Assembly: GCF_000003815.2 (NCBI RefSeq)
Contig: NC_049992.1
Span: forward strand, 11,484,753-11,548,752
DNA from: Branchiostoma floridae
Lineage: Eukaryota > Chordata > Leptocardii > Amphioxiformes > Branchiostomatidae
Reading direction: 5' to 3'
DNA length: 64,000 nt
Shown here: positions 1-32,600 of the stretch, piece by piece
How the letters are laid out: the number at the start of each line of letters is the position of its first letter
How positions within the stretch are numbered: position 1 is the first letter of the stretch
Translations under genes and position numbers: made by a program
Notes under the pieces: model-generated
Told to the model about the DNA's origin: nothing
Seen by the model: the letters and a program-made list of their open reading frames with translations, nothing else
Database searches by the model: none

Positions 1-224
1 ACTTCTTTCACTATCCTGAGTTTATGCAGGCTAGGCTGCCAAATCCAATTTTCAAATAGATTGTCATGAGCATATGAGGTAACAGTGTGAATCAAGCAGT
101 CTGTTTGTTGATATAGCTCAGTAACTACTTACCTGTAATATGACATCTGAGGAAAGGTCAGTCATACCAGGGTATCTTGTAGAAACATTTTATACAATGA
201 TACACTAAACTTAAATGGTACATC

Positions 225-537
225 TTTAGCTAAGGGCACAAGCCGCCGTACCTGCAATTTGTCCGTACGTTTTTTGGGAGGCCACGTCCCCCACGTTTTT
301 CTGAAAACGTGGGAAATGACTGGCAAGAGCAGGAAGGGAGTACGTCAATGCACGGCACCTAAAGTTTTGCCTGCACGCAAAGTTTTACGGCATGTCTGCG
401 TGCTCCAAAATCCGTCTGATTCCTACGAGTTCGTACAGAGGCGGTACTTACCACTTGCGGATACAAAAAGATTTCCCACATTTTGGCACGTAGACAGCAC
501 GTATTTGCATGTACAGTGGGTTGTGCCCTTAGCTTTA
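225..537. mobile_element. Non-autonomous DNA transposon (MITE) with TTTA target duplication
   Basis: A 13-bp terminal inverted repeat, GCTAAGGGCACAA at 229-241 and its complement at 521-533, encloses about 280 bp of non-coding sequence. It is flanked by a direct TTTA at 225-228 and 534-537, which looks like the target-site duplication. No transposase is encoded. It lies beyond the last exon seen of the large minus-strand receptor gene, so presumably in one of its introns. The superfamily is not assigned. Confidence 0.7.
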
Positions 538-593
538 AATGAACCATTGCTACATTCAGTGAATGCACGTTGACTACAGAATACATTATATAC

Positions 594-2417
594 CTATGTT
601 TGAAGACCTGGCCAAGACCATCTCTTCCCTGGTGTTTGTCATGTACTCCAGCACAGTGTCACACAACTCCTCCAGGACATCTGTGATATTGGTCACCTCC
701 TGGATTCCTACAGTCTGGGATAAAACAGGACAAATTTCCTAGGCTGCTGTGCAAAGTTACAAAGTTAAACATTCTAATCTTAAGAAAAAAAATGGGATCA
801 CCTGTACTGGATATCAGACTGGGATGATATCTTTAGAAGGCAAAACTCTCAACATCAATATTCTCAGGCTGCTGTGTAAAGTCAGAACCACATGACATTG
901 CTTTTTGAGTAGAATTGAATCATTCTTTTTGTAAGAAAAAAATTGTGGTCACCAGTACTGGACAGCAGTCTTACCTCTTGAATGTCAGCCCACTGGTCGA
1001 AGTAGGGTCTACCATACAGCAGGCTGGCAATCTCAAGCATGTCCTGAAAGAATACAAGCCTTGTTATGATGGCAAATCTAGCAAGAATATTGTCACAATA
1101 TCCTTAGCAGTAGCCAGTATTTCATTATGTTGCTAATGGGATCCCTGACACCCTGGGGGTAGGCAGCAGCCGGTTAGGCCATGAAATTGACAAACTGTAC
1201 TGTAACAGTATTTTACCTTCATTCTAGCCAAGAAAGGAGAAATTAATCACCAAAAATCAAGTACAGGACATGACATTGACAACAGCATTTTACCTTCATT
1301 CTAGCCAAGAAAGGAGAAACTAATCACTTAAAATCAAGTACAGGACATAGTTTTGTCTTTAGTTAATGATTGACTTGTACAGAAAGAACTTTACATCAAT
1401 GTATTGTTCGCGTCTCGCTCGGCTGCCGTCCTCGTACAGGAGCGGTTTCAGGCGGACGAGGCTGGTCAGGAGACGCTTGGCCTTGAGCAGGTCTCCTGCC
1501 TGCAGGCAGCCGGGGTCCGCTAGGAGGCGCTTCAGATCCTCGTCCAGGTCAGTCACAGCCATCATCTTGCCGTTAATCTGACTCAGCTACGAGCAACAAG
1601 GTCACACTTGTTATTTTGCATATCTATTAGTCATACAGAGTCATATATCATTTTGACAGAATATTACATGTACCTCATTTTCCTGGATACACCAAACACA
1701 GCTCTGAGATAACTCCATGATGTGGAGATACTTAGTAAATACTGATAACCATTTGCCTCTAGTATACACAGAAAACTTGCCCAAGATGTTGCAGAAGAGC
1801 ATCAGGACTTAAAAATCATTATGAAAGACACTTGGAGAAGCAGAGTGGACTTAGGGAAACAGCCTGATATGATGACACACAGCAAAGTCTGATCTCACCC
1901 TGCCATAAATCTCCTCCATGGCTGGGGAGGTGCACCTGGTGAAATCCTCTTCCTCCCAGTGGCCATACCTGCCACACTTCCGGGTTCCAAAGACTGAAAC
2001 AGATCAAACTCACTTCAATCCCAACTTACCAAGACAAGATTAAGTGTTAAGTACAAAGAATTTACATAATTATTCAATTCCGTGTATCTATTGTGTTGGA
2101 AAAAAAACACGCTGACTTCAAGAATGATGACTCTAAGTAACTCTGGGTATTCTTGGTTCCAAAAACTGATCAATGTACATTCAATCCCAATTTACCAAGA
2201 AGAGATACATTAAGTACAAAGAATTTTCATATATTCTAATCGTGTATCTATTGTGTTGAAAAAACTGCTGATTTCAAGAATGATGAATCTTGGTATTCTT
2301 GCAAAATATCGTATAGGCACTGACCACCATCTTGATCTGCACAGGAAACATTCTGTATTTCCTCTGCTTCTACTTCATTCCACACCACACCACAGCGGCC
2401 ACGGACCGTCCTGCATT
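594..2417 (-). other. HormR domain and beginning of GAIN domain
   Basis: Exons 2417-2325 and 1993-1899 encode a cysteine pattern with VVWNEVEAEEIQNVSC, RKCGRYGHWEEED and FTRCTSPAM, matching the hormone-receptor (HormR) domain of adhesion GPCRs (W..., CP-like Cys, R.C...G.W...C.s). Exons 1586-1395, 1043-975 and 714 to about 600 encode helical sequence (GDLLKAKRLLTSLVRLKPLL; TNITDVLEELCDTVLEYM) typical of GAIN subdomain A. The autoproteolytic GPS is not in the window. The last donor may be at 608 (GTCTTC, poor) or 594 (GTATAT). Confidence 0.78.
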
Positions 2418-5400
2418 CTGGGGAGGGATTGACAACAGATAGAGCAAGGATATTATACAGTGATCTTCAACAGGTACATGTACATGTACAACTGTCTTTG
2501 TCAAGTTGCTGAAATCTGCCAGCAGTCTTGATGTTGATATGTGTATATTTTTCAAGAGCAACTTCAGAATAGATTAAAATGTACATGATAAGAAATATTA
2601 GTTTTCCTTAAGGTTATGGTTAAATTCTTGAGTCATTTATATGCATGTCATAAAATCCTTCTTCAATTTGTTGCCAGGCATTGTGGTCTTGAGAAATTTT
2701 GTTTGCTTTCAGATGGTCTAGTTTTGCTTTCAACTAAACCTAATACCGTTTGCCACAACTTTCTTACTTGGCATGTTAGAGCAGAGGTGCTCATTGCACT
2801 GCCCAGTCACAGTTTGGATGCCTCTGCCGTCACTGTCCCCATCACAGCGCTGCCCCGCGTACTCTGGGGCTGGGTTGTTACAGATCCGAGTTCGCTGCCT
2901 GGTGCCCCCTCCACAGCGCCTGGTACAACGTGACCACTCCATCCACGCTCCCCAGCCTCCGTCAACTGTGGTTATCACAAGGTCATACTGATATTTCTAA
3001 ATGACTGGTTGATAGATGATAACATATATAGATGCGATGATAACATATATAGAACTTTATTGCACAACAATTGTACATGGTACAATGTATGGCATAGATT
3101 TGTGGGACAACGTGCATCAATCAATGCTGGACAGCAAACTATTGCCAAGGCAATTCATGCATTACAATTATATACATTGTAAATCACTCACCCTAAAGAA
3201 TACAAGAGGCTAGATCACATTTAAGTGTGTCACAGTCCTTAATACATACAGTCACTGTGCCAACCATGTAGGTTGCTATTTTGTCTCACGACATTGAATA
3301 CATACATTTTTAATATCATACATAATATTGACCAAACAAATCTAATCTGCTGGATTTAAAATTTCTTAATATGTTAATGCATACCCATCAGAACTTAGTT
3401 TAACAACAATGTTTTTACTGATGACTTTCATGCTGGATAAAACATAATGCATTTGACAAAATTTTATTCTTCAGATTTCATACTTATTGTCTAGAAAAAT
3501 CAAAGAAATAGTTTTAACCTGGGCATGGGTTGTTGGTGCAGATCTTCCAGTCCTGTGTGTCGGCAGTGGTCCCATTACAGACAGACTCTGGCTCCACTGT
3601 TGTACCGTTCATGCACGCCCTCGTGCGGCTGTGGGTGGCATTGCCGCAGGTGGCAGGGCAGGGGGAGAAGTCTGACCAGGTGGACCAGTACACCTCACCT
3701 GTAGAAAGAGTTGAGACGAAATCAAGCTTGTGATGCTCTTGCTACAAACAATACAATATACATGTGTATGTGATTTCATAGAGAATTGCACATGTTGGAT
3801 CATTGCTTCAAAACTAATAAATGTTAATTTTGTACATTTGGTTCTGAGTGAGAAACCAGGCAAGGGGAAGTTTCTTCCACAATTTCTTTTTCTTATTTGA
3901 AATGACACTGCTGTATCAGCAATACTTCTCCAAATACATTATTTATGTCAACTTTCTGAATTGTGAATTCTTTGTTATGTATATCAAACTCCTCCACTGA
4001 AAGTCATTGTTGACTCATACCAGGGCAAGGATCAGATCCACAGCCCTGTATCTCTGTGTCGTTCCCTTCACAGTCTCGGCCTCCCCAGCCAGGAGCGGGG
4101 TTATCGCAGGCTCTGGTACGGTTGGCGATCCCTCCGCCACATGATACGCTGCACTGTCCCCACTCACTCCACTCAGACCAGCGACCATCAGCTGTGAAGC
4201 AGATCAACAAGAGTAGGCTCAGAGTGACAAAGCTAAGAAAATTTTACAGTGCTGATGGTTCAACAACTGAGCTGCTGAATTTTAAGTACTTCCCATAGAG
4301 GCAGTGGCCATCTCCATTCCTACCGTAGATTCCACTCATTATAGTCCACTTAGTATTGTAGTAACTGAAATTGTTGTAATATAATGTATATGTGTAATAT
4401 TAGACTGTAACTTTTGTTATCTATACATTGTGATACATTGTCACTGTTGGATGCAATTGTTGCACCATAAATCATCATTGTCATTGCCATTGTATATCCC
4501 TGGGGTCACACAGACCACTACAGTAGGGGCCAGTCCATGAGTATTCAACTTCCATACTCTTCTCATACAAAGTAATTGCTTACTGCTAAACAAAGAAACT
4601 GTATGTACTGTTTTTCAATGGGACTTTGGTATGACCCAGCTGGGGTTTGAATCTCTAATCTTCCATTGCACCAGTCTAAACAACTACATGTCTATGAAGA
4701 CATGATCAGACCTGGACAAGGCATCTCGTTGCAGCGCCGAGTCTCGACCGCCGGCCCCTCGCAGGGTGCGCCGGTGCCCTCCTGTCCGAGACAGACGCGT
4801 GTCCGCTGCTGCGTGCCACGCCCACACTCCAGGGTGCACTCAGAGTACTCCCTCCATTCTGACCACTCCCCATCGGCTGTAGGGGTGTTGAGAGGAGGAA
4901 ACATACATGTAATGCATGTCGTACATTACTCAAGGAAGAACATTACTCAAGGAAGTCATTATAAGTGACTTCATACAAAGCGCTACCATCATCTGCAAAG
5001 ATGGAAAGATGCCTACTAGAGGCATTGCCAAGTTTGTTATGGAAACTTAGATCTCCATTTAATGAATTTGATGTAAAAAAGTTATGTCAGAAACAAGCAT
5101 TTATCATTCAGTATTTGAGCTTGAACTGAATTATAGATTGTTAAGATAATAACAAAGAAATAGAATATTAGTAAAATGAGTCTGTCCATCGTCATTAAAC
5201 ATTTGGCCAAAACTACAAAATGTACCTCTGCCCTCTAGTGACGCTGACAAAGAGTGATGAATGTTACTCGAAATGTCCAGAAGTAAATCTGCTTTTATCC
5301 ACTTTTAGAGATTGAATTGTATTAGTTTGCCTTCTTTACAAAAACTTCATAATGACTAAAAAAGAGGCAAGGAAAGAAATGATTAACAGAACACCAAACC

Positions 5401-8400
5401 TGCACAAGGGTCCTGATGACACTGTCTCTGCTGGGTGCGACTCCCAGGACAGCCTTTCCCACCGAACACTGGGGTGGGGTCGGAACAGCTGCGGACACGC
5501 TGCTGCACTGCAGCTCCACACGACTGGCTGCAGGCTCCCCACGCCTCCCAGCTGGTCCAGCCTCCATGGACTGTCAGTCAAAACAAAAAAATATCACATC
5601 ACGTTTCATACACATAAATCTATCTTATCAGTTTAGCTCAGTTTAGATCAATTCCTGGCACAAGACAATGTCTCCTTGGTAAAGGTAATTAACAGGACTT
5701 TCCCTATACTCCTGAGACTCCAAAAAGACTTTGGTTGGGGTAGTAAGAGGCATTACCCTGCCTTCCAATACCATGTCTTCGATTCAGAGAATAACAACAA
5801 ACAGCCCTTACAGCCTCAAAACAGCTTTTTGCAGTCCTACCTTTTACATAATGATTGATTGAACCAAGTTAGACCTTTATTGCACATTTTTGCCACACTG
5901 GGCTAAGTACAGGTCACAACAAGATTCGTTGAAAAGATTCAGTTAACAGATACAAAATGAAACTATCGTTGGAAAAATTCAACTTCTCTTCGATAATAAA
6001 TAATGAGGTGAGAATTATTTGACAGATACTTGACTTGAGTTTCTACTGTAGCACCTCACCTGGACAGTGGTCCAAGTCACAGGCTATCTCCTGTGTCTGG
6101 AGAGCCTTCCCAGCAGCACCCTCACACTCGATGCTGGGGGACCCGTCCACGTGGTGGCACTGCCTGGTGCGGGTCCTCACCCCGTCCCCACAGCTCTGGC
6201 TACAAGGGCTGTAGGCCGACCAGGTGCTCCACACGTGTACAACAGCTGCAGCAGGTGGCATGAGAAACAGTTCGGTTCAGGCATTTTAAAAACAATTTTG
6301 ATTTAGGTTAAGCTTTGGATAAAGGTAAACTTATCTAGAGTTAGTAGCTGAAAAACAAGAAGTAGTAGCTGAAAAACAAAATTTTATGTGTATACAAGAC
6401 TGTTGCAACACTTTATCATGGGCAGCCAAAGTTTTTTTTCATTCTACTATTAACAATACTACCCAATCATCCAGACCTAACCTTGGTCATAAGCCTAGCC
6501 CAACACTGAACCTTATATTGTATGTGACCCAATATGATCCAATTATACAGATTTTTTTTTGTTATACTCACATGGGCGCTTTGTCAAAGTCACTGCCTCA
6601 CTCTCCTTGCCATTGCTGTACACTGAGACAGCGATCTCATACTCATGCTCCACAGAGAGACCATTCAGGGTCATCCCGGTGTCTGTGATGATCTGTGACT
6701 GTTTGGATGTTGGCCTTCCCACGATGCCATGGGTGATGATGTAGCCCTCCAGGTTCCCGGACGTGGGGCGGTCCCAGGCCAGCTCGATGTAAGTGGTGCC
6801 GCTGGACTCCACCCAGAGGTCAGCGGGAGGGTTGGGGACTGGAACAACACATGATGAAATGTTAAAAACAAAACATGAAATATTCCATACATCTCACACT
6901 TCCAGCACAACATCCATACATCCATACATACATCTCACACTTCCAGCACGTCAATTTTTCCACAAACTATTGCGCGCCATCTTCTTTCAAAGATGCTTCT
7001 TGCACTACCTGGGTTTCAAGGTTTCAAGACAAGAAATATGCATACAAATCAAGTTTTCTACTAACAACTACCTGTAACATTCTGTGGCACCAAGAGATTA
7101 ATTTAGATTTTGAAATATTGTAAATCTTATCATATGCTGCCAAAACATAAGTTTGTGCCATGCTACACAAGTCAAAATGTGTCAAGATTGAACTCTTGAC
7201 AGTTCATTTTTCTACATTAAATTTTACTTTTTTTCATTCTGAATTCTCTTCCTGTGATTTGGATGTTGTACTACAAATTCAAACTTGAACTGAAACCACA
7301 AGCTCTTACATGTTGACTCCCGCAGAATGACAGGCTCGCTGGAGTTCCCGTCATAGTTTGACCTCACATACATCACATAGTTTGCTCCTGCCAACAGCCC
7401 TGTGGCTTCAAAACTTGGTGGGGTGAACGGCCTGTAGGGCGTTGCTCCCTCCCCAGGCTTGGGTATGGCGTCCCCAGTGTAGTTCCCATAGGAAATCTCG
7501 TAGGTGGCAAACTGAAGTGCCTTGGTGAGGGGCGGGGCAGAACCGGACACCCTGTCCAGGCTGACTGTGATGAAGCTGGAGGTTGTTGAGGTGCTTTCAA
7601 CATGCATGTTGATTGGTGGTTCCAGTTCTGAAAACAATAATTAGCATGTCCATGAAGAATATGTATTGTAATCCATAAGCTTGTGTGTGTGTGTAATTCT
7701 GCTTCAGAATGTTTGGTGTGAATTTGCTTTGGCCTTGACAGAAAGTGCTTTGGCCTTGTTAGTCTCAATAGACGGTTGACACCTCCAGTCATTGTTTCCA
7801 GTTACAGAAAGTAGACAACATATTATATGACTGAGTCGTAGTATATGTAGAGTCACATGTCTTATGTTGTGCAGCAGACAGTAAAGAAACTGGCAAAATC
7901 CTACATTGCACAAAGGGGACAACCACACCAGTGACATCAATCGAAACTGCAATCTAACTGGTGTGCACTTTTAAAATCATTCTTCTTTCCTATTTAGAAG
8001 CATCACAAACCTCTTACTTACTTGTCACAGCTACTTCCTGACTTGACCTTGCGCTTGACACCCCAAAGAACACGGTTGTCACTGTGAACTGATACTCCGT
8101 CATCGGCTGTAGTCCAGAGATCGTGGCAGAGGTGCGGTCACCCGGAACTAATGTTGTAAAAGTCTGGCCATCCATGATGTTTGTGTATGTGACTTCGTAA
8201 TTGGTGACTCCGCCCACAACCGGCGGGTTCCAGTCAAGTGAGATGGAGTTGTGGGTGATTGACAGGAGGAGGAGATCGTTCGGTGGATCAGGATCTGTCA
8301 CGGTCAAAGAAAATGATTTTACCTCACAAGTTCAGTAATAGTACTATCATTTCAGTGGATGTAACTTGGCTCATACCTGATCTTGAATCAAGACAACTTT

Positions 8401-11400
8401 CTATGGATACACAATACCTCTCAGTCACTGACAAAAAATAGTGGATGCTATCTCAAATGACTGAAAGTCTTCCAAATCCATTCAGTTCCTCAATCAACTT
8501 TTGCATCGTGTATCTTATTAACTGGTTATCTGAACTTCTATGTGTTAACTAGAGTTTAGATGCATTATAACTGAAGTTTAAGTTTTAGAATTTCTATTAG
8601 TCACATAATGATAAAATACAGAAAACCATTTTGCAGCGATACATGTATAAGGCACTATTTTCTTCCCATTTTCGACTTTGTGTAAATCATCAAAAGTCTT
8701 TACAAAATTGGAAGCATGATTGAAAGATAGGAAAAAGTGAGTAAGGTCTTTACCAGTTGGGAACACAATGATCGCTGGTTCACTCTCAGCTCCCGACACA
8801 TCCACCGCAATGACCTTGAACTCATACTTCCTCCCAGGGAAAAGGTTGTTGGATTCCACTGACTTAATCTGGAAAAACAGACAAAACAGATAAGGTGCAG
8901 CTTGTACTACAAGTGAACACATGGGGATGATACAAGACTTTATAGTAGCAAAAAGAATCTTCATTTTGTCTTTTTTGTAAATTTTATCTTTGGCCTTCAA
9001 TCATGTTTTATTTAACACAAAAGAAAACACAATACATCAGATTAAAACAAAATCGAATTACCAATATGACTGAATACAAAAAGATATGTATGTGTAAAAT
9101 GCGATGTAATGCATTGCGTCTTTCAGACATACAGACAAACTGTTTCATCATGAGCACGTGTTAAAGTGTAAATATTTGAAATAATTTGTCTAGATTGTAT
9201 CTTAATTACAGTGTTTAAAAGGATAATAAGGTAGAATTGAACATGTTACTTACAATCCTACCAACATCGGCCATAGGAACTGTTGGGAGCGTCCCAGCCT
9301 CGCCAAGTTCCCGCTTAAAGTTCGCGACCCGTGCCATCCGGAAACCTCGCCAGGAGAAGTCAAGTTCGGTTGTGCTGTGCCGGTCCACATACAAATCTGG
9401 AGGCTGGGGATCGAAGCATCAATATAGACAAATTGATACACAATTGCAACGGCAGCAATATTCCTTCATGGATTTGTAACTGATTTTGATATGACTTGTG
9501 ACAACAATCAGTGATAAGACAAAAAATCACAATCAAATCTACCATGTGACAAATGTACCTTGGTGCTTAACACCATTCACATCATGAAATAATAAACCTG
9601 CCCCTGTGCTGAAAACTATTCGTACCATGCAACAAACCTGTCCTTGCAGGTGCTCAACACCATGCACAATGGGGAAAACCCTGTCCCTGGTGCTAAATGC
9701 CATCCACATTGTAGAACAAACCTGTCCCTGGTGCTGAACACCATTCACACCTAGTGCGTAACACCAACTACACCATGTGATATACCTGTCCTTGGTGCTG
9801 AACACCTTCCATGCTGTATTAAAACCTGCCCCTGGTGCTGAAGACCATTCACACCATGTTAAATACTTGTACTTGTATATAAGTGCTGAACAATGTCCAC
9901 ACTTTACAACAAACCTGTTCCTAGTGCAGAACACTATTCACCCCATGTATCTGTCCTTGGTACTGAACGCCATCCATACCATAAGACAAACCTGTCCTTG
10001 GTGCTGAACACCATTACCACCATGTAAAATACCTGTCCTTGGTGCTGAACACAATATCCATCATGAAACAAACCTGTCTCTGATCCTTAATAGAGAATAC
10101 GTGTTTAACACAAACAAGAGAATTGGAGGTCATAACTATTTACAGCTCCTTGCATCATTGATTTTTAAATAGACCAGCCTGTACCAAAGGAGAGTAGGCA
10201 CGGTCCTCAGGCCCTCCTTCATCCACCAGCCCATCACAGTCATTATCCAGACCATCGGCATGGAGGCCGTCATCAGCTGACACAACGCAGGGGTTGATGG
10301 GAGCAAACCTGCAACAAGAAAGAAATTGAATCACTATGTTACATATGCATGTCTTAAGTGTCTATGCATCTCTTTGTTATCTGTGTGTGTATCATGCTCC
10401 AGGAAACAATTCTAGTTTTAGTGTTGTGCTTGCTTGCTTGCTTAGGGCAGTCCGTCTGTGCCAACGATGACATCACTGTTAGCTGTCAAAGTCTTAGTGC
10501 AGTTGTATTTGGAGTTTTAGTGTTGTATATGGAGTTTTTAGTATAATTGTATTTGGAGTTTTTAGTATTGTATTTGGACAATGGTGCACAAAACTAAGAT
10601 TCCATAGAAAGAAGATCATTTACTCTATGCAGTTTGTGAGATACTTACATGAAAAGGAAGAATGTATCGACTACCAGAAGGTGTTTACACTTTGACAAAT
10701 CTAAAAATAATGAAGGTCAGTTTCTATCATCCGCTCTTACCTTTGCCCCCCAGGGTAGCTGTATGACTCTCCTCCTGCCGTCCCATACTGCACCACACCA
10801 AAGGCTCCCTGAAGGCTGTTGTGCTGGAAGGTGGCGGTGGTGGCACCTGGACTCATGTTCTTAGTGGTAGCTGAGTAACCTGACTCTTGGCTCCAACCAG
10901 AGACAGCTGGGAGGAACAAAGAACAAACAGTGTAAGGCTTGAAAGGGAAGGGGGGGGGGCAAATGAAGCAGCAATGAAGAATATTTACCTCACTGTTACT
11001 TCTATCATCTTCATTCCCACCCTTGCATATTTTAATTGACTTGAGAAAATAACATCACTAGAAATTCCATGTAAGAGACAAAAGTGGTGGTCCTAATCAA
11101 GAAGCAGTTCTTCATACAGTAAGCTGTCTTCAAAAGATTCAAGGAGTGAGTAAAAAAATAGATCAATTTAACAGTAAGCAGGAAAAGAAAGCATTTCTAC
11201 ATAACTGTGAAGAAAACACCTTCTAGAGAACTTTAAGTAAAACAAAGGAGATTGTAGATGAAGATGTACCTGTAGTTATCTCTGACATGACACCAGTTTC
11301 CTGTGCAGTGCTTACACTAAGGATGGCAGAGTTGGTCCAGTCAGAGATGGCAGCGAGACCGTAGTCTGATGTGTACTGCTCCACTGGTGGGATGACTGTC

Positions 11401-14400
11401 ATGGATGGAGCACGGCCACTCTAATTCAGATATTGATAAAAGTGCTGTGTTAGTTGCTGCTAACTGTACTCTAATTCAGTAATACTACATTTCTACTGTG
11501 GAACAAGACACATGAATGTGTGATGATGTTTTGTCTGTACGATGTTTTGATAATTACAGAATACTGGGTATTACTACAGTAACTATTTGAAGCACGTGAT
11601 TTTGTCCACTTATATGACTTTACTACGAAAGGCAGAGGCCTGGTGAAGTTGATTTGGCTCAAAACAGGTAAATCCTTCAAGGAGATTTCAGACTATATGG
11701 GGAAGTGTTGATAGCAAGTCTTAGTTCAAGAATGACCCTGATTAAACTTACCCCCCCATTGGTATACTGAGCCACCAGGACTGGGTAGTCAGCTTGAATG
11801 ACTGTCACAGCACTAACATCAATGGATGCAAATGATCCTGCACTGATCGGACCACTGTTTGCGCCGTTTATGGAGTAGTCAGTGAGTTGTGATGCAATCA
11901 CCCTGACTTTGTCTGTACCTCCATCTGTATGTAGAACAATGCCAGTAAAATTACAATTCAGTTTGCAGTATGCTGCAGGATTGCTGATAAACATGCCTGG
12001 ATTAGATGTTAGATGTGGTCAACTGCTCTATCTGCAGCCAATGATGTTCACATTGTACATTCCCTCTACTCATACAACTTATTTGAGCAACTGGATGGAC
12101 TTTGTCAAATGCTCTTATGCTCTTTCATTGTTCCCCAGTTTTACATGAAAAACAGGTTGATGACATGAGCTGAAATATTCTGGTTAAACAATAAGTAAAT
12201 GTATAATGCACTACCTTTTGTCAGTAACTGTAGCTGACAAAAGGCAACAGCTGCTTCCTGACATTTCTGACCACTTTTGACATCTAAACAGTTGCTTGAG
12301 TGACTTTTGTATTGTGTACTGATGATGATGATGATTGATTCTCCTGTCGAACAGTCACTTGCGAGGTGGGTTTGTTGACCTGTTTGCCTGACCTGCACAT
12401 GACTTTTCAAGGTGAAGGAGGGGTGTGCACTTCCTTCTCAACCCTCTTACAAGTACAGGAACTGGCAGATGAAGCTTCCTCCCACCCCAACTCGTTTATA
12501 GCGGGTGCATCATGCCCGAACATGCCTCTAAGATCTGCTGCTGTGTATACAAATTGTGTACACTAAGACAACTTCATACATCAGTTTTAGATACACCAAA
12601 ACACATGCATTCACGTCTGTCCCTTAGGATATTCCATGCAGAAGAACTTACTGAGTGGTTTGACCACAAAGGTGCTCCCCCAGGTGTAGACAGGAGGTAG
12701 GTACTCCACCATGTACCCTGCATCTCCTGAACCCACCACAGCACCATCAGTACCACTCAGGACTGCTATCGGCTTGTCAGAGATGACCTGTGAACAAATG
12801 AACAAGGCACCAACATGTCAGGCTTGAGTGATCTCAGTAGCTTAGCTCTTTAAAGCTTTCCTGGAAGGCTTAAAATACCAGCCACACAAAACTTGTACCA
12901 ATTGATATTATTTTTGGTAGTGAGGAAGCTTTATAGCTGCTATGACTGAGGAAGCACCCAGCAGCCAGCCAGATCATTGGAACCTTTCCTTGAATTTGGA
13001 AAATTTTTAGTGCAGCTAAGAAGTAGTAAGAATCACTTAAAAAGGAAATAGAATCTGATGTGCAAAATCGATATCCCAAGGTGTATGTTTTCAGGCTTGG
13101 ATATTTTTCCAATGAAACTATACAAAATGTGTACAAAACTGTTAGACTTATAACAACGTGACAGTTGAAACTAACCCTTGTTCCAGTGAGATCCCCTGCA
13201 GTCGTTGAAGCCACAAACTGTACCGTTTCCATTCTGTGCACCTCTAGTATGATATCCTGTCCACTACTGTAGGTGTGGGATCCAGAGCGGTCCTGTGCCC
13301 CCTCAAACGTCACTCCAGCAGTCAGAGTGATCCTGACCATGGTACGGTCATGTACGCCAATCATCACAACTCTGGACCTGCCAGTACTTCCTGGGAGTGG
13401 GCAAATGTAAAGAGATAAAGATGTATGTTTGTTGACCCCAAAACAGCAGAACAAGTTGTGTCAACATAACCAACAGTATATTTCTTCCATTCTTACAATA
13501 GTTTCATCTATGAACATTCTGTTTCAAATCAAATGGCTTGCAAGTAACCATTTGACAATAGGTAATACTACCATCTTACGTCTTACATCTAGCTCTATTC
13601 ACTGTTTGGCATTTGACAATTAGTCGCTGACTTTTGATGCAAAATTCCTCAACATTTGTACCTTGGTAACTGGCCACATAGTACTCTTTCCCCAGCACAT
13701 CTGTGGGCAGGGCCATGTAGCCATCTTTATTGCCCCGACCATAAACCGTGATCTCGTCATTGGCCTTGATGAGCCAGCTGTTGAACTGCCCCGTCCTGCC
13801 TGATCCGGACACGACTGGTTCACTCAGTGTTTCCTCATGCACCAAACCGGCAGACTAGAAAACAAAGAAAAAAATGTCAGAGACCTCAGTCTTCAGAGTA
13901 CTCTGAAACAACTGCTGATTTCAAATGTCATCACAGACATACTCAACAGTGAGCATTACAAATCATTATTTGGAAGATTTTGTTTTGTATCTATCAGAAA
14001 TCATATGAAACATTTTGAATGCCATCAGTGTCACTTTACAAGCATCTATTTCCTTTATGCTTGAGGTGTTGCAGAAAAAGGGCACTAATGTGATTAAAAA
14101 ATGAAAATTTATTCATTTGAATCTACAGCTATTTGCATATACCTACACTAAGTGTAATATTGCTGCCTATTTGTTGATCGTTCAATCCGAAGATTTGAAC
14201 AGTGGTGTCCAAGTAGGATGTGGCCCTGATCAGTGCCTTCTTGTTGGTAATGCCAGCTGGAAATGCCAGGAGAAATTCAGTCCCAGCATTGTCAGGCAAA
14301 TTGTATCCTGCAAAAAATATTTGTAAAATCAACAAACTTCATCCGTCTCTCATAATTCAATCAAGTGTTAAAAGCGTAAAATAAGCTCTCATGTTCCATA

Positions 14401-14987
14401 TTGTTGACATCAATCTTATATCTCTTATAACTATGCTATCAATTGGAACCATTTAACTGAAAACCGCATCATTTTGTCTTGACTTTTACACACCAAAGAC
14501 GACAGGCTAAATGTGAAAATATATTTGGAAATCTAAGAGCTCATGCAGCAGCATTTACATTCTACTTCCCTGATCGTTTTCAATCTTCCAGCCACTTTAA
14601 AATCATGATCCTGGGAGCCCTTCCAAGAACAACAAAGTTTGTAATAGAAGAGCAAAATTTTGTGCTAGAATTATGCACACTTTGGGTGTGTCTGAACACA
14701 ACAACCCTTCTAGCATTAGTCCCAATTAGATCCTGGCTTTGAAATATGCCATTTACCATTTGTCTATCCACAGGAGGCTGAAAATATTCTTAGAAAGCAG
14801 TTCCAAACTTTGTAAAACATTCCCTGTTTTTTTACCCATGAACAGAAAACAACCCTGATGATTTATTGAAAATAGTCATTGTAGCAAAAGGTAAAACCTT
14901 ACCTTGTCTCCCTTCAGCCAAAGGTGACTCCAGCAAGCATACCACAGAGAAGACCACCACAGCCTTGAAGAAACTATGCCAAACCAT
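594..14987 (-). CDS. Adhesion GPCR-like receptor, 5' 25 exons; IgGFc-binding/FN3/TSP1/HormR/GAIN ectodomain (3' end outside window)
   Basis: Very large modular surface receptor read on the minus strand. Exons (high to low): 14987-14903, 14307-14147, 13854-13662, 13390-13176, 12787-12652, 11924-11752, 11420-11270, 10906-10741, 10308-10185, 9403-9254, 8868-8754, 8294-8022, 7627-7310, 6838-6572, 6245-6060, 5570-5400, 4876-4712, 4191-4021, 3698-3519, 2965-2768, 2417-2325, 1993-1899, 1586-1395, 1043-975, 714 to about 594 or 608. All junctions are AG/GT and keep frame through about 1385 codons. Order: signal peptide (1-27), IgGFc-binding N-terminal domain (about 30-425), DGLDNDCDG segment (about 427-468), FN3 x4 (about 470-842), TSP1 x6 (843-1199), HormR (about 1200-1262), start of GAIN (1263 on). 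HormR followed by GAIN is the adhesion-GPCR signature; the GPS and 7TM are expected left of base 1. The start ATG precedes a clear hydrophobic signal sequence. The last exon's donor is uncertain. Confidence 0.82.
2768..6245 (-). other. Six thrombospondin type 1 repeats, one per exon
   Basis: Exons 6245-6060, 5570-5400, 4876-4712, 4191-4021, 3698-3519 and 2965-2768 each encode one TSP1 repeat with WxxW (for example WSEWSEWGQC, WGAWMEWSRC) and six cysteines. All are bounded by phase-1 introns, so each could be shuffled or skipped without loss of frame. The WxxW motifs are potential C-mannosylation sites. CSQSCG, CSVSCG and CPATCG fit the C-x-x-S/T-C-G O-fucosylation pattern, while CTLECG and CTRRCG do not. 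In BAI-type adhesion GPCRs, TSP1 arrays also precede the HormR and GAIN domains. Confidence 0.92.
6572..9403 (-). other. Four fibronectin type III domains (five exons)
   Basis: Exons 9403-9254 plus 8868-8754 make the first FN3 (LDFSWRG near the start; PGRKYEFKVIAVD near the end). Exons 8294-8022, 7627-7310 and 6838-6572 each hold one whole FN3, with the conserved Trp (ISLDWNPP, IELAWDRP) and Tyr corner (MTEYQFTV, AGANYVMYV, EHEYEIAVSVY). The three whole-domain exons are bounded by phase-1 introns on both sides. The 7627-7310 domain lacks the usual early Trp and is the most divergent. Confidence 0.85.
9545..10085. repeat. About 41-bp degenerate minisatellite
   Basis: Around twelve imperfect copies of a unit containing CCTGTCCTTGGTGCTGAACA and an ATTCACACCATG part. 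Copies start near 9638, 9680, 9721, 9785, 9825, 9867, 9914, 9951, 9991, 10032 and 10073, mostly 38-47 bp apart. The array lies in the intron between the metal-binding-like exon and the first FN3 exon of the large receptor gene. A related but weaker motif occurs near 55.1-55.4 kb. Confidence 0.85.
10185..10308 (-). other. Exon for acidic DGLDNDCDG metal-binding-like segment
   Basis: This single exon links the IgGFc-binding region to the first FN3 domain. It encodes NPCVVSADDGLHADGLDN followed by DCDGLVDEGGPED. The spacing of Asp, Asn and Gly in DGLDNDCDGLVDE resembles short calcium- or metal-binding repeats of the MopE/thrombospondin-like type seen in many secreted proteins. Metal binding is an inference; the motif is seen directly. 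Confidence 0.6.
11270..14987 (-). other. Exons for signal peptide and IgGFc-binding-protein N-terminal domain
   Basis: Seven exons. Exon 1 encodes MVWHSFFKAVVVFSVVCLLE, a typical signal peptide. The next exons carry features of the IgGFc-binding protein N-terminal domain family (recalled as PF17517, found at the N-terminus of FCGBP and in many invertebrate and bacterial surface proteins): GTEFLLAFPAG in exon 2, repeated beta-strand units such as ATSYLDTTVQIFG, EYYVASYQ in exon 3, VVMIGVHD in exon 4 and PIAVLSG in exon 5, then a stretch like YPVLVAQYTNGG in exon 6. The domain finishes in exon 8 with FGVVQYGTAGGESYSYPGG. The role in this receptor is unknown; ligand binding is an inference from its N-terminal position. 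Confidence 0.72.
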
Positions 14988-15060
14988 CTTTCCACAAGTT
15001 GTCCCCCTAACTCCCCCCCTGGACATTGGTAACTCTCCCTGCTCACTTATCACTCTGTAA

Positions 15061-17792
15061 AGTTTCCTTTCACAACGGAAGAAACGGTTTGCTCAAAAGA
15101 TGGACATTTTTTTCCAAGGAAATGTGGCTGGCTCGTTTCTTCGTCCGTGGCGCACCTTGATAAAGTCTTGCATGTGATGGAATTTCAGTGACGTTTCTAG
15201 CAACTCATTATGCACCTACCAATGCAAAACTACATGGCACTCTATGCACCACCAAAATAAACTTCAAACTCAAAACACAAACTAACAATAGCAGTTTGGT
15301 TTTTCCTTGAACAGAGGGTGAATATTAAACTCCAAAACAGGACACTATCAACTGAAAGTTTTTGATGTTTGATGTTGAAGAATTTTTGTAAGACCCTCTT
15401 GCCTGACTAGATAGGTGCCAGCAGAGTATATCTTGTTGCCATGGTAATTTTAAGGATGGATGAACAAACAGGATCTTTGCGCCCATCTCATTAATATTTC
15501 ATGTCCTTGCTATTGTCCCAATTCCCATTAGTCTGATTAGAGACCTTGTTGCTGATCAGAGATACTCAGGACTTTTGTCGTTATCTTTGCCAGTCTGAAC
15601 CATAATGTTGTCTTTGCTGTTGTTAACATTCCAAAATACACCAAAAATTCTCACTATGCTTTAAAAAAAAAAATTTCTATAAGTGAAGTTTTCTTTTCTT
15701 CTGCACAAAAATTGATAGTATCTCAAAAATTTGTCCAGAGAGAAAGTGATCATAAGACTAGTTGTTATGATGAATAATTAATACATTCATCATGGCAAGG
15801 TATTAAACATTAAAGCCACAGACACAAAGGATGCTTTTGTACATGATGCTCACTTGGAAGGTGGGTGAGAAAAGTGGAATGATTAAAAGGAAGATGTTTT
15901 GTGGTATGAAAGTAGTCTGGGACAGGCTTTTAACTTAAGGGCTGCCAAAATTAAGTAGGGCAGAAAAGGGGCCAATGACACCCTGCAAATATGTAAAGAA
16001 TATGTGTTTCATCAGTCAGTACCACTATAGACAATGCTAATCCTTGCATCCATTAGAGATATGAGGCACAGCCACAAAATCATCTTGAAGTTCTGTAGTA
16101 CACACTAAATGTTTGGTTTGAGGCTAGACAGACAGGATAATGATATATTTTTATCCTGCCCTGAGTGTGACGACAGTTTGTAATTTTATATGACATTGTG
16201 CTATTTACCATTGTCCTTACAGGTTTCTGTTCGTGAGCCAACCTTGGGTGATTGTCATGAGGACAAAGGTTGCTATGTATGATGTTACAGACAGAACGTT
16301 AAGGATAAGAGATGATAGCATTTGATATTGATAGAGAGGAAACTGTTGGAAATGTACACATGTACATGTACATGTACCATGGCAAGATAGGAGGTCAAGA
16401 AAAATCAAGATAGCTGAAGCCTGAAAGGATTAGAGGAAAAGGTTACACAGAAAATATCAAGACTTATTCTATTCCCTTTGACATTGAACAATTACATGTA
16501 TTTAGACTGCATTGAAATTTGAAGAAGATATTTTCAGCAATTTTATTTGCCTCTTTCTTGATGTATTTCTTTCATTTAGTTAATTCAAGATCCTTTCCAC
16601 ACTTCATGGTTCATAACCACAGCAAATGCTAATAAAAAAGAAATGTCCAAACTTGTACAGAAACCTCTGTGATATTAAGATTTCTTATACTCTATGGTTT
16701 CTTTCAGTGCTAACTTATAAGATGTACATTTTAGTTCATTTGAGATTGCACATGGAGCTTTATTATGAATGTACAATGCAATGACCTCTATACACTTGTG
16801 ATTTTGAACTATTTTGATCAAGATGTTGCTATACACAAAAATAATTTGAAGGCTTTTCAATTCATAGAATGAAGCCCTCTAGCATTTGCAATTATCTCTA
16901 TTGCAGCTTTCAATAAAAAAATACAATATCAACTTTAATTTGGATTGATTATCTTAGTCAAATGTATAAGAACATAGGCCATAACAAAATAATAAACTAA
17001 ATCTAAAGAATTGGACACAGTACAGATAAATAGCTTTCATCTTTTTTTATAGCCTGGCATTCAGTCTACTTGTTTGATGACTTTTGAATTGTGTGATTTT
17101 TATCATCAAGTTTTGTCTGTTAGACACTAAAAGATATACATGTATGGATATCAACTCTGATAGTTGATTCCTTGATTCCTGTGCATGGTCTTTTGGCACT
17201 GTTTGACTGCTTGAATGTGTTATTGCAACATGGCATTAAGAAGCATTTGTAAAAAAAAATTTGCTAGTTGTATGAAACGCAATAATTGCACTTATGGTAA
17301 TTTGAATAAATATCATACAAATGTACATTTGATTCCAATTCATATATTAGTGTTGCTCATATTGCTATTATGTAGTAATATACAATAGATCTGGGGTGCA
17401 GTAGAATGATGTAACTTTTGTGCTCAATTGGCAGTGGCAAGACCCGGCAAGGAAGACAACTGAAGAATGTTGTTGATGTGTCTTGACTTACACTTGACTT
17501 TCACTGCAGAAGCAGCTACTCCCTTCTAGCAAAGAGGCTAGAAGTCACTTCTGAAACATAAATGTCAAACATCATTCTGATGTTTCCACTTCACTGTGTC
17601 ACTGACAAAAAACAACGGATGTTGTTTGAAATGTCTGACCGTTTCCAAAATCACATTGAGTAACTGCTTTTTGATTCTGATTATTTTTCAAAATGACAAA
17701 GCTATAATAAAGTGAAAACTGAGTGGAATCTTTAAACAAAAATGTGAGAAGGCACAAAGAACAGGTTAGTCTGTTCTCCATATGCATTCAAG
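15061..17792. other. Intergenic region, no gene seen
   Basis: AT-rich sequence between the first coding exon of the large receptor gene (its 5' flank) and the last exon of the pore-like membrane protein gene (its 3' flank). I see no coding exon, RNA gene or clear transposon. A short TACATG run lies near 16355-16380. The promoter of the receptor gene and the 3'UTR of the other gene should be here, but neither can be placed from sequence alone. Confidence 0.6.
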
Positions 17793-26616: not shown

Positions 26617-29600
26617 ATGCCAACCATAGGAGTAAACAGAGATCTCCTTTTCGAGAGGCTCGGACGGACGTACAGTGAGTAGAGCGTCTCTTTGTTGTTG
26701 CTGCATGCATCCGGCATCTGAACATGTGGACCGACCCGCCCCCCTCCCACACCTTCATATCGCAGAACTTTAAATTTATATAGAAAAAATGCACAAAGAG
26801 AAGTGCTCTATAGAATCTCTCATACGCTTTGCTGTAACAATCTAGGCGTGCTTTGGTTAGCCTATGTTATAATGGCTATCAATTAAATTTTGCAGTGGGC
26901 AGGGTTCTGCTTCACAATAAGATAATTTATCTTGCAAAATTTGCTAGTGCCTATTCAATAAAGAAATTGATTTTACAGCTTGTCCTGTGTTAATTTTTGC
27001 AGCTGAAGAGGAGTTTGATGAGCTAATGTTTGACTATGGACTGGAACTGGATGAAGTGGTAAGTCAGACAGGATAGAGCTCATCAATTTTGATAGGCTAT
27101 TTATATCAATTAAACAATATTCTTAGTTTATAGAAGAACATTTGATTCATTTGCAAGTCAGGAATCTAAAATTTAGATAAGATGTAGGCTATATATTAAT
27201 CAGTCAAAGAATGACATGAAACAAAAATAAAGAATATTTGTATTTTGAGCCCTGTACATCATTCCATATGTTAGTTTGTCAAGTATTACAAATGAAAACC
27301 AATAGTTTGTTGAGACAGGCTTTGTCTAGAAATTTGATCATCACTCTTTTGAACTAGAATATAACAGTTAAATGACAATATATTAGTTTATTTTGCATAC
27401 CTGGTAAACCACCTTAAGGTGTAACACACCAAGCTGCATATCCAGATAGATTGATTTGATCCACTCACACCAGGAAGGATCCCTACTCTTTTTGATAAGT
27501 GTGATGGGTTCTTAACTTCTTTAGCATGCTCGAGGTGTGTCTCTCCTCAAACACAGGAACTCTATTAAACATCATATCTGAAATGTCTGAGGAACAGCCC
27601 TAACCGAAGCTAGGTATTCATTTTTATCTGTGGTAAGTGCTTTCCCCAAAGGCACAAGATCGGTGGCACATCAACAGATTCGAACCCAGAACCTCTTGGT
27701 TATGAATCAAACACCCTGAGAATTGCCCACATGACCCCATATTTGTACTCCTTATCCACAGACTTCAGAGAAGGCCATGTTGGAGAAAGAGCAGGGTGTG
27801 ACGGCACAGGGGGCGTCTGAAGCCATCATCTACAGGATAGAGATACCTGCCAACAGGTGGGTGGGGGGAGATGCACTCTTAATAGTCTCCAAGCAGATCT
27901 TACACTAACATAAGATAGTCTCATAAGCTGGCAAGGTAGTGTAACTTGCAAAGTAGTGTAGCCACTCTTTTGCCGGGTTATGATGCTACATTTGTATCTT
28001 ATGCCACCATAGGATCTGCTTTGAGATTACACTCTTACTACTGGTGATGATTATGATTTATAGGGTGTGGTCAGGAAGAATCATGGTGGGAGATAAGATT
28101 AGAAAATACACAATTTGCTTTTAGGTTCTTCTAGAGAAGACTTTTATTATCATATATAAGCAGACCAAACTATATGTACTGTATGACCAAGGAGGTTATA
28201 TAATTAAACCTCCTCAAGGTATGACTGAATTTACTTCATTTTCTATTCTATATCATTTGATGGATGGTCATCATGTCAACTCCCTGGTACATGTTCATGT
28301 AGTTGGGTATGAACTGATGATGAAGATGATTTACTTTTGTATAGAGTACAGATAATTATTTCTGACTTCTCTGTTTTATTCTACAGATACGACTTACTGT
28401 GTTTGGAAGGACTGGTGAGAGCCTTACTAGTTTTCAAAGAAAAGTAAGTATACATTCATGATTGTCTGCTTATACCTGTTTTCTTAAAGCCTACATATGT
28501 GCATGAAGACTCACATTCTGTCAACTATTGATGTGGCTCATATTCTAGACTTGAACACAGACAAAGTGTTTGTTTTTTACAACATATTGATTGATACTAA
28601 TTTTCATGTCATATATTTATGAGATTTTAGCCTTCTTACCATTCTGCCAATGCATAAATTGCTTTGAATGATATGTTTTCTTATGCTTCTGCTGTCATTA
28701 GAGACTTAATCATTGTTAATGTTTTTACAGACAGAAGGCCCCCAGGTACAAGGCTATCCCCCCTGCTGATGGCAACTCCCAACAACTCATCATTCAAGAA
28801 GCAGTAAGTTTCTAGACTTGTTTGAGCATTGCACAAAATCACAAATTTCTACTATGGTCAGCAAAAGCCCAATAATTACATCATAAAGCTAGGTCAGGAA
28901 AAAACTATATAGCATCATTTCCTTTCCCCTTTGGGAGTCAAATTAATAACTACACAACTTAAACTGCATCCTCTTCAATATTTTCATCCTGCTGTAAGTC
29001 ATCCCCCAGAGGTTCCCCAAGTGCTTGTCGTAGTCTGGCCCAGAAGAGAGGAACATGCTGCTGTTTGTTGGGCCAGCGTAGGTAGGTGTCCCTGTTAACG
29101 ATGTTATTCAGCAGCGGGTAGCGCTCTAAGACACGGTCAGGGATGTTCTCCAGAAACACGAGAATCAGGCTCACCCTACGCGGGTCGAACAGGTGATATC
29201 TCCCCTGGGACATCTGCAGCTCGTAGTTGCACCAGCTGCTTCGTAGGAAACTCCTCGTGATGACGCAGACAGTTTTCCTGCTCGTTTCCACGGCATCTCG
29301 GATGTTGTGTAAGATCAGTTTCCCGCCTACAAAGTCACGTTCTGCGATACACAGGTGGTAGTGAGGAGGGCGGTCTTCCAACATTGGGGACAACATGCGG
29401 GACACCCAGGCTTTGTCATTGCTGCTGTATGCCACAAAGGCGTCGTATCTAAACTGCTGCGGTTGTTCCCGGATTTCTTCATATCCACGAAGACGGAGCC
29501 TAACTCTAAACCACATGTAAGCAAAGTAGCCACTACAGAAGTTGACAAGGACAGCAGAGAGCATGTAGAGGAGAAGGAAAGAGGTGGATATGGCACAGGC

Positions 29601-32600
29601 ATAGAGGTCACGGTGAGAGGCACAATCAGGGTGAAAATTAGGCAGATCTGTGCCGTGGAGGTCAGGAGGAGTGTTACATTGGTACCACCCTTCTGTCCAT
29701 CCCTGCACTACAGAAGGGTGAGCATCAGCCCAGGATATAAACCACTCGATCTGACAGTCACAAAAGAAGGGGTTATTGTTGATGGCCAATTTGTCTAGTC
29801 CTGGTAAAATGGTCTCAAAATTGGACTCATTCAACAAGGTTATGCTGTTCCAACCTAGGAATAGGGTTTGTAATTTGGGAGAAGCTGAGAACAAAGTCTG
29901 TGGAAGGTACATTATTTTGTTTGACGACAAGTCAACTGAGCGTAGGTTTTTATGAACTTTAAACAACTCAGCAGGAAGGTATGTTATGAAAGATTCAGAC
30001 AGGTCAATGACCTCTAGATTAGGCATGCCATAAAAGATACTGTTGTTTGAAAAACTAGACCAGATTTCTCCTGTCTCCCTCATAATCAGGGTAGTCAAAG
30101 ATACAAGCCCATGAAATATCATCCCATGGCCAGGTGTTGTAGCAATCCAATTTCCACTGAGGTTCAGCTCAGTTAGATACCTGAGTTTTTCAAAGATAGT
30201 AGGATTAGGCCACGGAAAAGGAGTAGCAAATAGTTTGTTATAGGACAAGTCCAAGGTTTCTAGTGTTGTGTTTTCAGGGAAGTTTAAAGTGTTGTCTTGT
30301 AGAAAGAGTTGGTTGTGACTCAGGTCAATGTGCTTGATGCTGGCAAGACTGGTGAAGTCTATGATGCTATATTGAGATAAGTGGTTTGTGCCAACATTCA
30401 GCACTTCAAGAGATCTTAAACTGGAGAACACTAACTTTGGTAATTGAACTATGTTATTTCCATACAAATCAAGCTCTACTAGGGATGTTAGATTAACAAA
30501 TGTCTTGCTCGAAACAGTTTCTATATTACTCTCTCTCAATGTCAGTATCTTCAGATTATCCAGTCCAGCAAAAGTGTTGTCCACCAAATTTGTCAGGTCT
30601 TTCTCATCAAGCTGAAGAACCTCTAGGTTTTGAAGCCCTCTAAAACCAAATGATTCAATTTCTAATTTATTAAAACCCCAAATGAGATACAAAAATTTCA
30701 GGTTTGTGAGGTCATCAAAGTCACCTTGCCGGATGATTGTAACATCAGTTTGATCCATGTTAAGTTCTGTCAGAGTTTGTGCTACCCCTGACAGTGCAGC
30801 CTTCGGAATCTGTGTCAGGGAAACATCTGATAGGTCCAAGACCTGTAAACTAGATAATCCATGAAAAGCTAGTCCAGATAGTTTAGTTAGTATGTTTTCT
30901 GCTAGGTTTAGGTTTCTAAGATGGTTCAATCCCTGAAAAGCATTATCTTGTATTTCATTGATCATTACATGCTTCAGTGTCAATGTCTTCAAGCTTGTGT
31001 TCTGTAGACAAGCAAAAGAACCAGCCTGCATGACTGGAATGTTATAATTGTTTAGTCTTATTTCTGTGATGTTACAGGCACTTAAGCCTTCAAGTGCCTC
31101 TTGTAAGTTTGATAACAAAATAGGAATGCCAGACAGGTCCAATTTGTGTACAGTACTAAACAGAGTAAAGAAAGATTTGTCAATATGAGTTATCGGGTTG
31201 TCGGAAAAGTCTAGTAGGTCAAACCCATGCGAAAGGAAAGGCTTGAAATCAGAATAGTTCAAAGACGATATGTTGTTTCCAGACAGAATTAGTTCACGCA
31301 GTGAAGACATCTTAACAAAATCACTTGAAAATTTGCAGCTGATGAGTTGATTGCAGGAAATATCAAGACTTTTGAGATTCAAACCTTTCCAAATGTCAGC
31401 TTGTAGTATGTTATGTAGACTGTTGTGGGAGAGGTCAAGATTTTGCAGAGTAGAAAGAGAGGAAAATAGCTTAGCAGGCAGATACGACAAATGATTCCTT
31501 TTCAGTGACAACTTCTCCAAGTTGGAAAGGTTATAGAAGGCAGCTGGTTCAATAACTGACAGTCTGTCGTGTTCTAAGTTGAGAACTTCTAGAAGATGTA
31601 GAGAAGAAAAGGAGTTGTTCCTTATTGTCTGGATGTCATTGCTGGATAAGTCCAGCTCGATGAGATCATGAGGAAGGTTGTTTGGAACCCATGTCAGCCC
31701 ATCCGAGGTGCAGTCAGCAGTCTGGTTCACAATGGTACATGGAGTTCCTGAGATTAACAAGAGAAATGATCTTCTAATTAAAGTCTCTTCAAGTTAAATG
31801 ATAAATTGTGAAGTAAAAGGTATGAATGATGTATGGTCCTGCATATGGTATTGATTACAAGCAAGATGTTTGTGAATGTACAATGATCATATTTCTAGGG
31901 ATAGTCAGTCTTTATGCAGAGGTGAAGTCTGGATCAATATGTATGGACAAATACATATACTGTACATGTATGTGCAAATTGTTAAGTTCATTGTGCATCC
32001 TCAAGGTAGCAGAACACAGTTTTCGGCCTATGGTGATTTCTATAGTTAAGGACCACAAGGTTACTGACATCGACGGGGATAGAATTATAGTAGGGTGCAG
32101 TTTTGAAGCATGACAAACTAATATATTGAAGTCTAGGGTATAATCTACAAAATTTAAGTGAAAACAAAAAAAATGTGTCGCTTTTTTTAAATTTCGCCAC
32201 CCTCTTTTAAATGGGTCCTTCCATCCAGCAGGGCCATGCGGACTGCAGCCAACTCACTGAGGCAGTCAGTTGTAAAGGTCGCGTGCATTGATACACCGAA
32301 TGGCCAAACAAAATGATCCTATACATACGATCTAAAAGTTGACTCATTATACTACCATATAGCAAAGTTCATACCCCGCTGTCTTTCACGTTACTAGTCA
32401 GGGCTCAAAATACCACCTGCATATGCAGGTTAGTGCAGGTAAAATTGGAGCTGTGCAGGTATTTCTGGTGTCTACCTGCACCTAACCTGCACCGGTCCAT
32501 GTACTGGGTTTTGCTCATAAATGTCGTTTGATGTAGGTGTATGCTGATTCTTATAAGCTGTTACCACCTGGAAAGTAGAAAAGAAAAATAGCAATAGTTC

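Follow-up and report, generated by a model that had tools for sequence, protein, structure and literature searches.

Adhesion G protein-coupled receptors (GPCRs) of the ADGRB family, the BAIs, carry an array of TSP1 repeats (four or five in the human proteins) and end in a long cytoplasmic tail with a PDZ-binding terminus. Latrophilins, the ADGRL family, bear lectin and olfactomedin heads. To our knowledge, few adhesion GPCRs have known natural ligands. The best known member of the IgGFc family sits in mucus, and in FCGBP, whose human form binds IgG, VWD-type repeats follow the IgGFc domain. A gene on the minus strand of a 64,000-nucleotide stretch of the lancelet Branchiostoma floridae (the window; C14:11484753-11548752, in a genome of 513,431,437 bases on 431 contigs) very probably unites these two worlds. 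Its sequence predicts a single, complete adhesion GPCR of 1821 amino acids composed of a signal peptide, an IgGFc-binding head, four FN3 domains, six TSP1 repeats, HormR, GAIN, GPS, and a seven-helix domain.

The predicted lancelet receptor shares part of its architecture with each of these systems. As in the BAIs, the TSP1 array, HormR, GAIN, GPS, and seven-helix domain stand in this order, and the HormR–GAIN part aligns to that of BAI3 (4dlo). Unlike the BAIs, the lancelet receptor has an IgGFc head and four FN3 domains in front, six TSP1 repeats, and a short modelled tail in place of the long, PDZ-ending one. It has the HormR–GAIN–GPS–seven-helix part in common with the latrophilins, of which ADGRL3 is its best match among solved structures (1.7e-26), but no lectin or olfactomedin head was found in it by Pfam. 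With FCGBP it shares a full PF17517 domain; however, no VWD family is reported by Pfam in the joined protein (E ≤ 1), and the lancelet protein would be a membrane receptor. The binding of IgG by human FCGBP is not transferable to the lancelet head.

Within the window, 25 exons join on the minus strand into 1389 stop-free codons. They span 14987 (start of exon 1) to 594 (end of exon 25), precisely the limits that an earlier note, made from the window alone, had set for the feature. The 24 in-window introns measure 260–781 bp, and the frame runs past the window's left edge. Another 13 exons (26–38; C14:11484703 down to 11476356), located in the 10 kb next to the window, finish GAIN and add GPS, the seven helices, and the tail. 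The complete model has 38 exons, GT-AG boundaries at 37 of 37 introns, and zero internal stops. The splice sites were chosen by eye, requiring GT-AG and in-phase joining, and it is the gain in domain score after exon joining that tests the model.

Raw-frame Pfam scans covered the minus strand of window positions 1-8400 and 8300-15500 with a reporting limit of E ≤ 1. IgGFc_binding, fn3, and TSP_1 already exceed the Pfam cut-offs in unspliced frames. Joining raises the IgGFc_binding score from 37.8, 28.7, and 28.9 bits in three separate raw frames to 156.6 bits over the whole profile (297/297; cut-off 25.6). GAIN (PF16489) goes unreported in all nine raw frames scanned (E ≤ 1) and appears in the joined protein with 44 bits (2.2e-11; cut-off 26.5). 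Similarly, 7tm_2 (PF00002) rises from 32.8 bits for a single exon in a genome profile search to 69.9 bits (2.6e-19; profile 7-249 of 250). GPS (PF01825) is matched in the joined protein over its full profile (1-45 of 45) with 33.9 bits (4.6e-8; cut-off 22.5), and Pfam counts four fn3 and six TSP_1 domains there, the numbers given in the earlier note. That note had also held that the lack of a GPS and seven membrane spans to the left would refute its reading. Both were located there, with strand and order as a single receptor requires: the genome profile search places GPS at C14:11482076-11482162 and a 7tm_2 piece at C14:11478522-11478698, and hydropathy reveals one N-terminal hydrophobic segment, the signal peptide, and seven more (overlapping windows merged). 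The domain order, the open frame, the GPS residues, and the seven hydrophobic segments can thus be read directly from the genome.

All exons lie on the minus strand. Exon 1 (14903..14987) encodes the start codon and the signal peptide MVWHSFFKAVVVFSVVCLLESPLAEG, with a hydrophobic segment at residues 1-19; an upstream in-frame ATG near 15025 is a possible alternative start codon. Exons 2–8 (10741..14307; 14307-14147, 13854-13662, 13390-13176, 12787-12652, 11924-11752, 11420-11270, and 10906-10741) encode the IgGFc module, with the PF17517 match (1.1e-45, profile 1-297 of 297) at residues 126-413 in exons 3–8. Exon 2 is counted in the module since the alignment of single-frame relatives already starts at residue 4 of the head. 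The proposal of an IgGFc-binding N-terminal domain with its own signal peptide is therefore borne out. An open frame at 14580-14789, between exons 1 and 2, was left out of the model, as its sole match is a sub-cut-off one to an unrelated family. Exon 9 (10185..10308) encodes the Asp-rich tail DGLHADGLDNDCDGLVDEGG, and a similar motif occurs in other IgGFc frames. In intron 9, tandem repeats of approximately 41 bp occupy window 9631-10078, and similar-looking translated phrases occur at a second locus described below (approximately 32480-32960 of its joined pieces).

FN3 domain 1 is encoded by exons 10–11 (8754..9403; 9403-9254 and 8868-8754), where the match comes from the joined protein, the exon assignment was made by eye, and exon 11 shows a weak raw-frame match. 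FN3 domain 2 (exon 12, 8022..8294) is the best fn3 stretch (residues 559-632) and is also found in a raw frame. FN3 domain 3 (exon 13, 7310..7627) was assigned by eye from the joined-protein match, and FN3 domain 4 (exon 14, 6572..6838) is seen both in a raw frame and in the joined protein. Exons 15–20 encode TSP1 repeats 1–6 at 6060..6245, 5400..5570, 4712..4876, 4021..4191, 3519..3698, and 2768..2965, respectively, each matched by TSP_1 both raw and joined. Every one of exons 12–20, harboring three FN3 and all six TSP1 domains, is of phase 1-1; such uniform phasing is the usual signature of shuffled modules.

The TSP1 array is followed directly by HormR (exons 21–22, 1899..2417; 2417-2325 and 1993-1899), which is recognized by alignment to BAI3 (4dlo) and latrophilin-3 (6vhh), and by the N-terminal helical part of GAIN (exons 23–25, 594..1586; 1586-1395, 1043-975, and 714-594), matched by PF16489 in the joined protein. 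Of the HormR plus GAIN pair claimed earlier, GAIN is confirmed by Pfam, whereas HormR is seen by alignment, without a Pfam match. Left of the window, the GPS exon lies at C14:11482058-11482166, and exons 31–37, from C14:11481642 down to 11476492, encode the seven helices. The cytoplasmic tail is short in both C-terminal alternatives, the last exon being uncertain. Near the 3′ part of the gene, two open stretches (L009 870-1112 and 3521-3730) contain near-identical TVTxLAVIIGLPC phrases and look like copies of a repeat rather than exons.

The predicted product is a class B2 adhesion GPCR, as it combines GAIN, a GPS with an H-X-S/T triad, and a secretin-type seven-helix domain. When the HormR–GAIN–seven-helix part is compared with solved structures, 58 sequences match at E ≤ 10, including class B1 receptors and one unrelated chain (E 9.6); no ADGRB seven-helix chain is among them. 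HormR–GAIN alone matches BAI3 (4dlo, 1.7e-7) and ADGRL3 (latrophilin-3; 6vhh, 2.1e-7) about equally. The matches to solved adhesion GPCRs therefore identify the class, while the near-equality of BAI3 and ADGRL3 means that a subfamily cannot be named. The nearest relatives of the seven-helix part found in the same genome, at two other places, are weak ones (26 and 35% identity). The description "BAI-like" thus holds for the layout, a TSP1 array running directly into HormR (by alignment only) and GAIN. Membership in ADGRB was rejected as a claim: nothing specific to the subfamily supports it, BAI3 has other residues at the cleavage site, and the text of a 2008 survey records no amphioxus BAI-group receptor (PMC2246102).

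The GPS triad of the lancelet receptor is H-F-S where BAI3 has R-L-S, and a further Phe stands where BAI3 has a Leu. According to the text of a 2026 study, the canonical cleavage motif is H-X-S/T, and its His is kept in position by a Phe, F803 in latrophilin-1, to which L821 corresponds in BAI3 (PMC13062082). The Phe of CVFI in the lancelet protein aligns with the Phe of CSFW in ADGRL3 and with the Leu of CVLW in BAI3, as located by counting back the published distances of 33 residues in ADGRL3 (latrophilin-1 spacing assumed) and 34 in BAI3. The receptor therefore fits the published self-cleavage rules. The same study shows that the motif alone is insufficient and that flexible flaps matter, so that self-cleavage of GAIN between F and S of H-F-S is judged likely, not certain.

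The proposed mechanism follows what is held for the family. The N-terminal fragment would comprise the signal peptide, the IgGFc module with its Asp-rich tail, four FN3 domains, six TSP1 repeats, HormR, and GAIN. After the cut at H-F-S, head and stalk would remain bound, without a covalent link, to the seven-helix part, which would begin with SSYALLTKHY as its tethered agonist. Once the IgGFc head has caught a ligand or surface, the N-terminal fragment may be pulled on or removed, and the agonist would then enter the helix bundle and elicit G-protein signalling. That the receptor is cut, carries its own agonist, responds to force or ligand, and couples to G proteins is carried over here from the family by analogy.

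The IgGFc module is common in this genome, with 62 places in 23 clusters. Eight of these places (L021-L024, L026-L028, and L030) encode the whole domain or the greater part of it in a single open frame, while the receptor head and tail are spread over eight exons. Single-frame modules align with the head and its tail together; the one in L021, for example, has a 36% match to residues 4-429 of head plus tail. The earlier note had listed a DGLDNDCDG acidic segment apart from the IgGFc domain. The segment is present, and a similar GDGVDNDCD motif is the ending of four of the seven IgGFc frames inspected (L021, L022, L023, and L030); it is shortened in L024, and L026 and L028 stop earlier. Because a like motif terminates other IgGFc frames, the Asp-rich exon most likely encodes the natural end of the IgGFc module, its tail. 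A separate metal-binding domain was considered and rejected on the same ground; the exon scores 15.3 bits against Pfam MopE, under the cut-off of 27. Among solved structures the head has no sequence relative: the single match at E ≤ 1 (0.041) is unrelated. Coupling to IgG or mucin binding is suggested by the domain name only, a name taken from a human protein, and IgG binding was set aside for that reason.

A second locus, 0.66 Mb away (C14:12152000-12192000), repeats this arrangement: its IgGFc, TSP1, GPS, and 7tm_2 pieces share a strand and succeed one another as they do here. On the plus strand, IgGFc pieces at C14:12155572-12157885 cover profile positions 27-160 and 190-297 and have an acidic tail, GDGIDNDCDQFVDEE. 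They are followed by FN3-like stretches under the Pfam cut-off, by TSP_1 stretches, of which L012 has two and L014 six, and by a HormR-like stretch after TSP1. GPS, with the triad HLT, lies at 12188629 and a 7tm_2 piece at 12190241. Before and between these pieces are F5/8C, C-type lectin, SUEL lectin, CUB, and CPW_WPC domains (L019, L012-L015). The second locus may be one huge lectin-bearing adhesion GPCR gene, or more than one gene. With 23 IgGFc clusters and at least 40 GPS places (150 of 195 candidates scored), two pairs have an IgGFc cluster up to 40 kb upstream of GPS with fitting order and strand, whereas uniform placement predicts 0.036 such pairs.

The earlier note knew of no adhesion GPCR with this tip. 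The 2008 survey counts 37 amphioxus adhesion GPCRs and lists new heads including discoidin, CUB, C-type lectin, SRCR, Kringle, and somatomedin B (PMC2246102). These receptors, from the same kind of animal, have likewise unusual heads, and IgGFc is unnamed in the survey passages and Figure 2 legend consulted. No description of an IgGFc-headed adhesion GPCR was found in open-licence papers, subscription papers and domain-architecture databases being outside this scope. In a sponge survey, "IgGFc-binding" and "GAIN" are listed as "other domains" in the legend to a figure of GPCRs, SRCRs, lectins, NLRs, and TIR receptors, where the bearer is unstated (PMC8242945); a sponge IgGFc-GPCR may already be drawn in that figure. 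The claim of novelty thus stands for the open-licence literature and is qualified by the sponge legend. Within that literature, the IgGFc head is one for which no description in adhesion GPCRs turned up, in an animal group known for unusual heads.

Several observations weigh against a single receptor gene with a captured IgGFc head. The gene model is known from genomic sequence alone, and since GT-AG boundaries and phase served as selection criteria, they are not independent tests of it. At least four exons (16, 17, 19, and 37) have weak donors, and the C-terminal tail could finish in two ways, either with ITVKRQLVREMQEPKNDS as in the model or, after splicing to a further exon, with NPPVYIP. 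Pfam reports no HormR in the joined protein at E ≤ 1. The two receptor heads share 33% identity, and the second is closer to eight other modules (37–46%); a single head capture shared by both loci is therefore not required. A tree of ten heads, built from the two receptor heads and those eight of the 62 places whose single frame is long (clusters of several exons, as on C3 and C12, left out), leaves single capture undecided because both receptor heads are long branches. A signal-peptide-like start at window 8964 (minus strand) could serve a head-less form.

That start gives rise to the reading of one gene with two starts, in which the full receptor is accompanied by a head-less one initiated in the FN3 introns near window 8964. 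A crude scan for signal-peptide-like starts covered intron 9, the FN3 introns, the FN3–TSP1 intron, and the stretch with the TSP1 introns, with the plus strand as control. The sole candidate in the four regions is an ATG followed by a hydrophobic leader whose frame continues into exon 11 (MKILFATIKSCIIPMCSLVVQAAPYLFCLFF), and the plus-strand controls have none. However, this start falls inside FN3 domain 1 and would leave a partial domain, and the leader test is crude; a second start is considered unlikely. The same scan bears on the fusion by the model of two adjacent same-strand genes, a secreted IgGFc–FN3 protein and a TSP1–HormR–GAIN–seven-helix receptor. The uniform 1-1 phase of exons 12–20 cannot separate joined from distinct genes, and the minus strand of window 1-15000 contains ten polyadenylation-like hexamers. 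Yet none of the ten falls in the FN3–TSP1 intron, whose 326 bp are within the in-window range, and neither this intron nor the TSP1-intron stretch contains a signal-peptide-like first exon in the crude scan. The same domain order at the second locus also speaks against two genes, although a duplicated gene pair would give the same picture. At the level of sequence, the check thus upholds the absence of a two-gene split, and such a fusion appears highly improbable.

A pseudogene or an assembly artefact is scarcely credible: two assembly gaps occur elsewhere in the window, but the 38 exons are stop-free and there is no N within the gene. A weightier alternative, though still one to be doubted, is that the single receptor gene encodes an adhesion protein on a silent seven-helix anchor, without self-cleavage or G-protein signalling. 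The helix part is divergent, as its 26 and 35% identities to the two other genome places indicate, and human B2 (HLS, crystallised uncleaved) and G5 (HLT) are un- or hardly cleaved despite the motif, as described in the text of the 2026 study (PMC13062082). Against this, the protein has the H-F-S triad, the Phe in the position tied to cleavage, and a tethered-agonist core that is hydrophobic.

For a single-gene receptor, the IgGFc head is a defined module and a candidate ligand catcher on a protein with the sequence marks of self-cleavage. An IgGFc module can, on this evidence, occupy the tip of a predicted signalling receptor and may do so twice on one chromosome. The ligand could be a glycan-rich surface (mucus, matrix, or microbe), a suggestion put forward tentatively. 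More doubtful is the wider proposal of a chordate family of at least two adhesion GPCRs that would read mucus, glycan, or microbial surfaces via an IgGFc head, the second adding two lectin kinds and F5/8C. If true, a binding module of the barrier type would feed directly into GPCR signalling through a tethered agonist.

Outside the gene, the Pfam search covered seven open frames of the window. On the plus strand, an open stretch at 57179-57514 ends in RKRRARTVFSAQQVGN, which we take to resemble a homeodomain start, and is followed by an 888-residue open frame at 57968-60631; neither has a Pfam match. On the minus strand, 28962-31793, 37842-40673, and 43519-46423 are three tandem intronless Toll-like receptor genes, 82–92% alike in protein. 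LRR and TIR are identified by Pfam in the two complete copies, and the third is broken by an assembly gap at 45099-45198.

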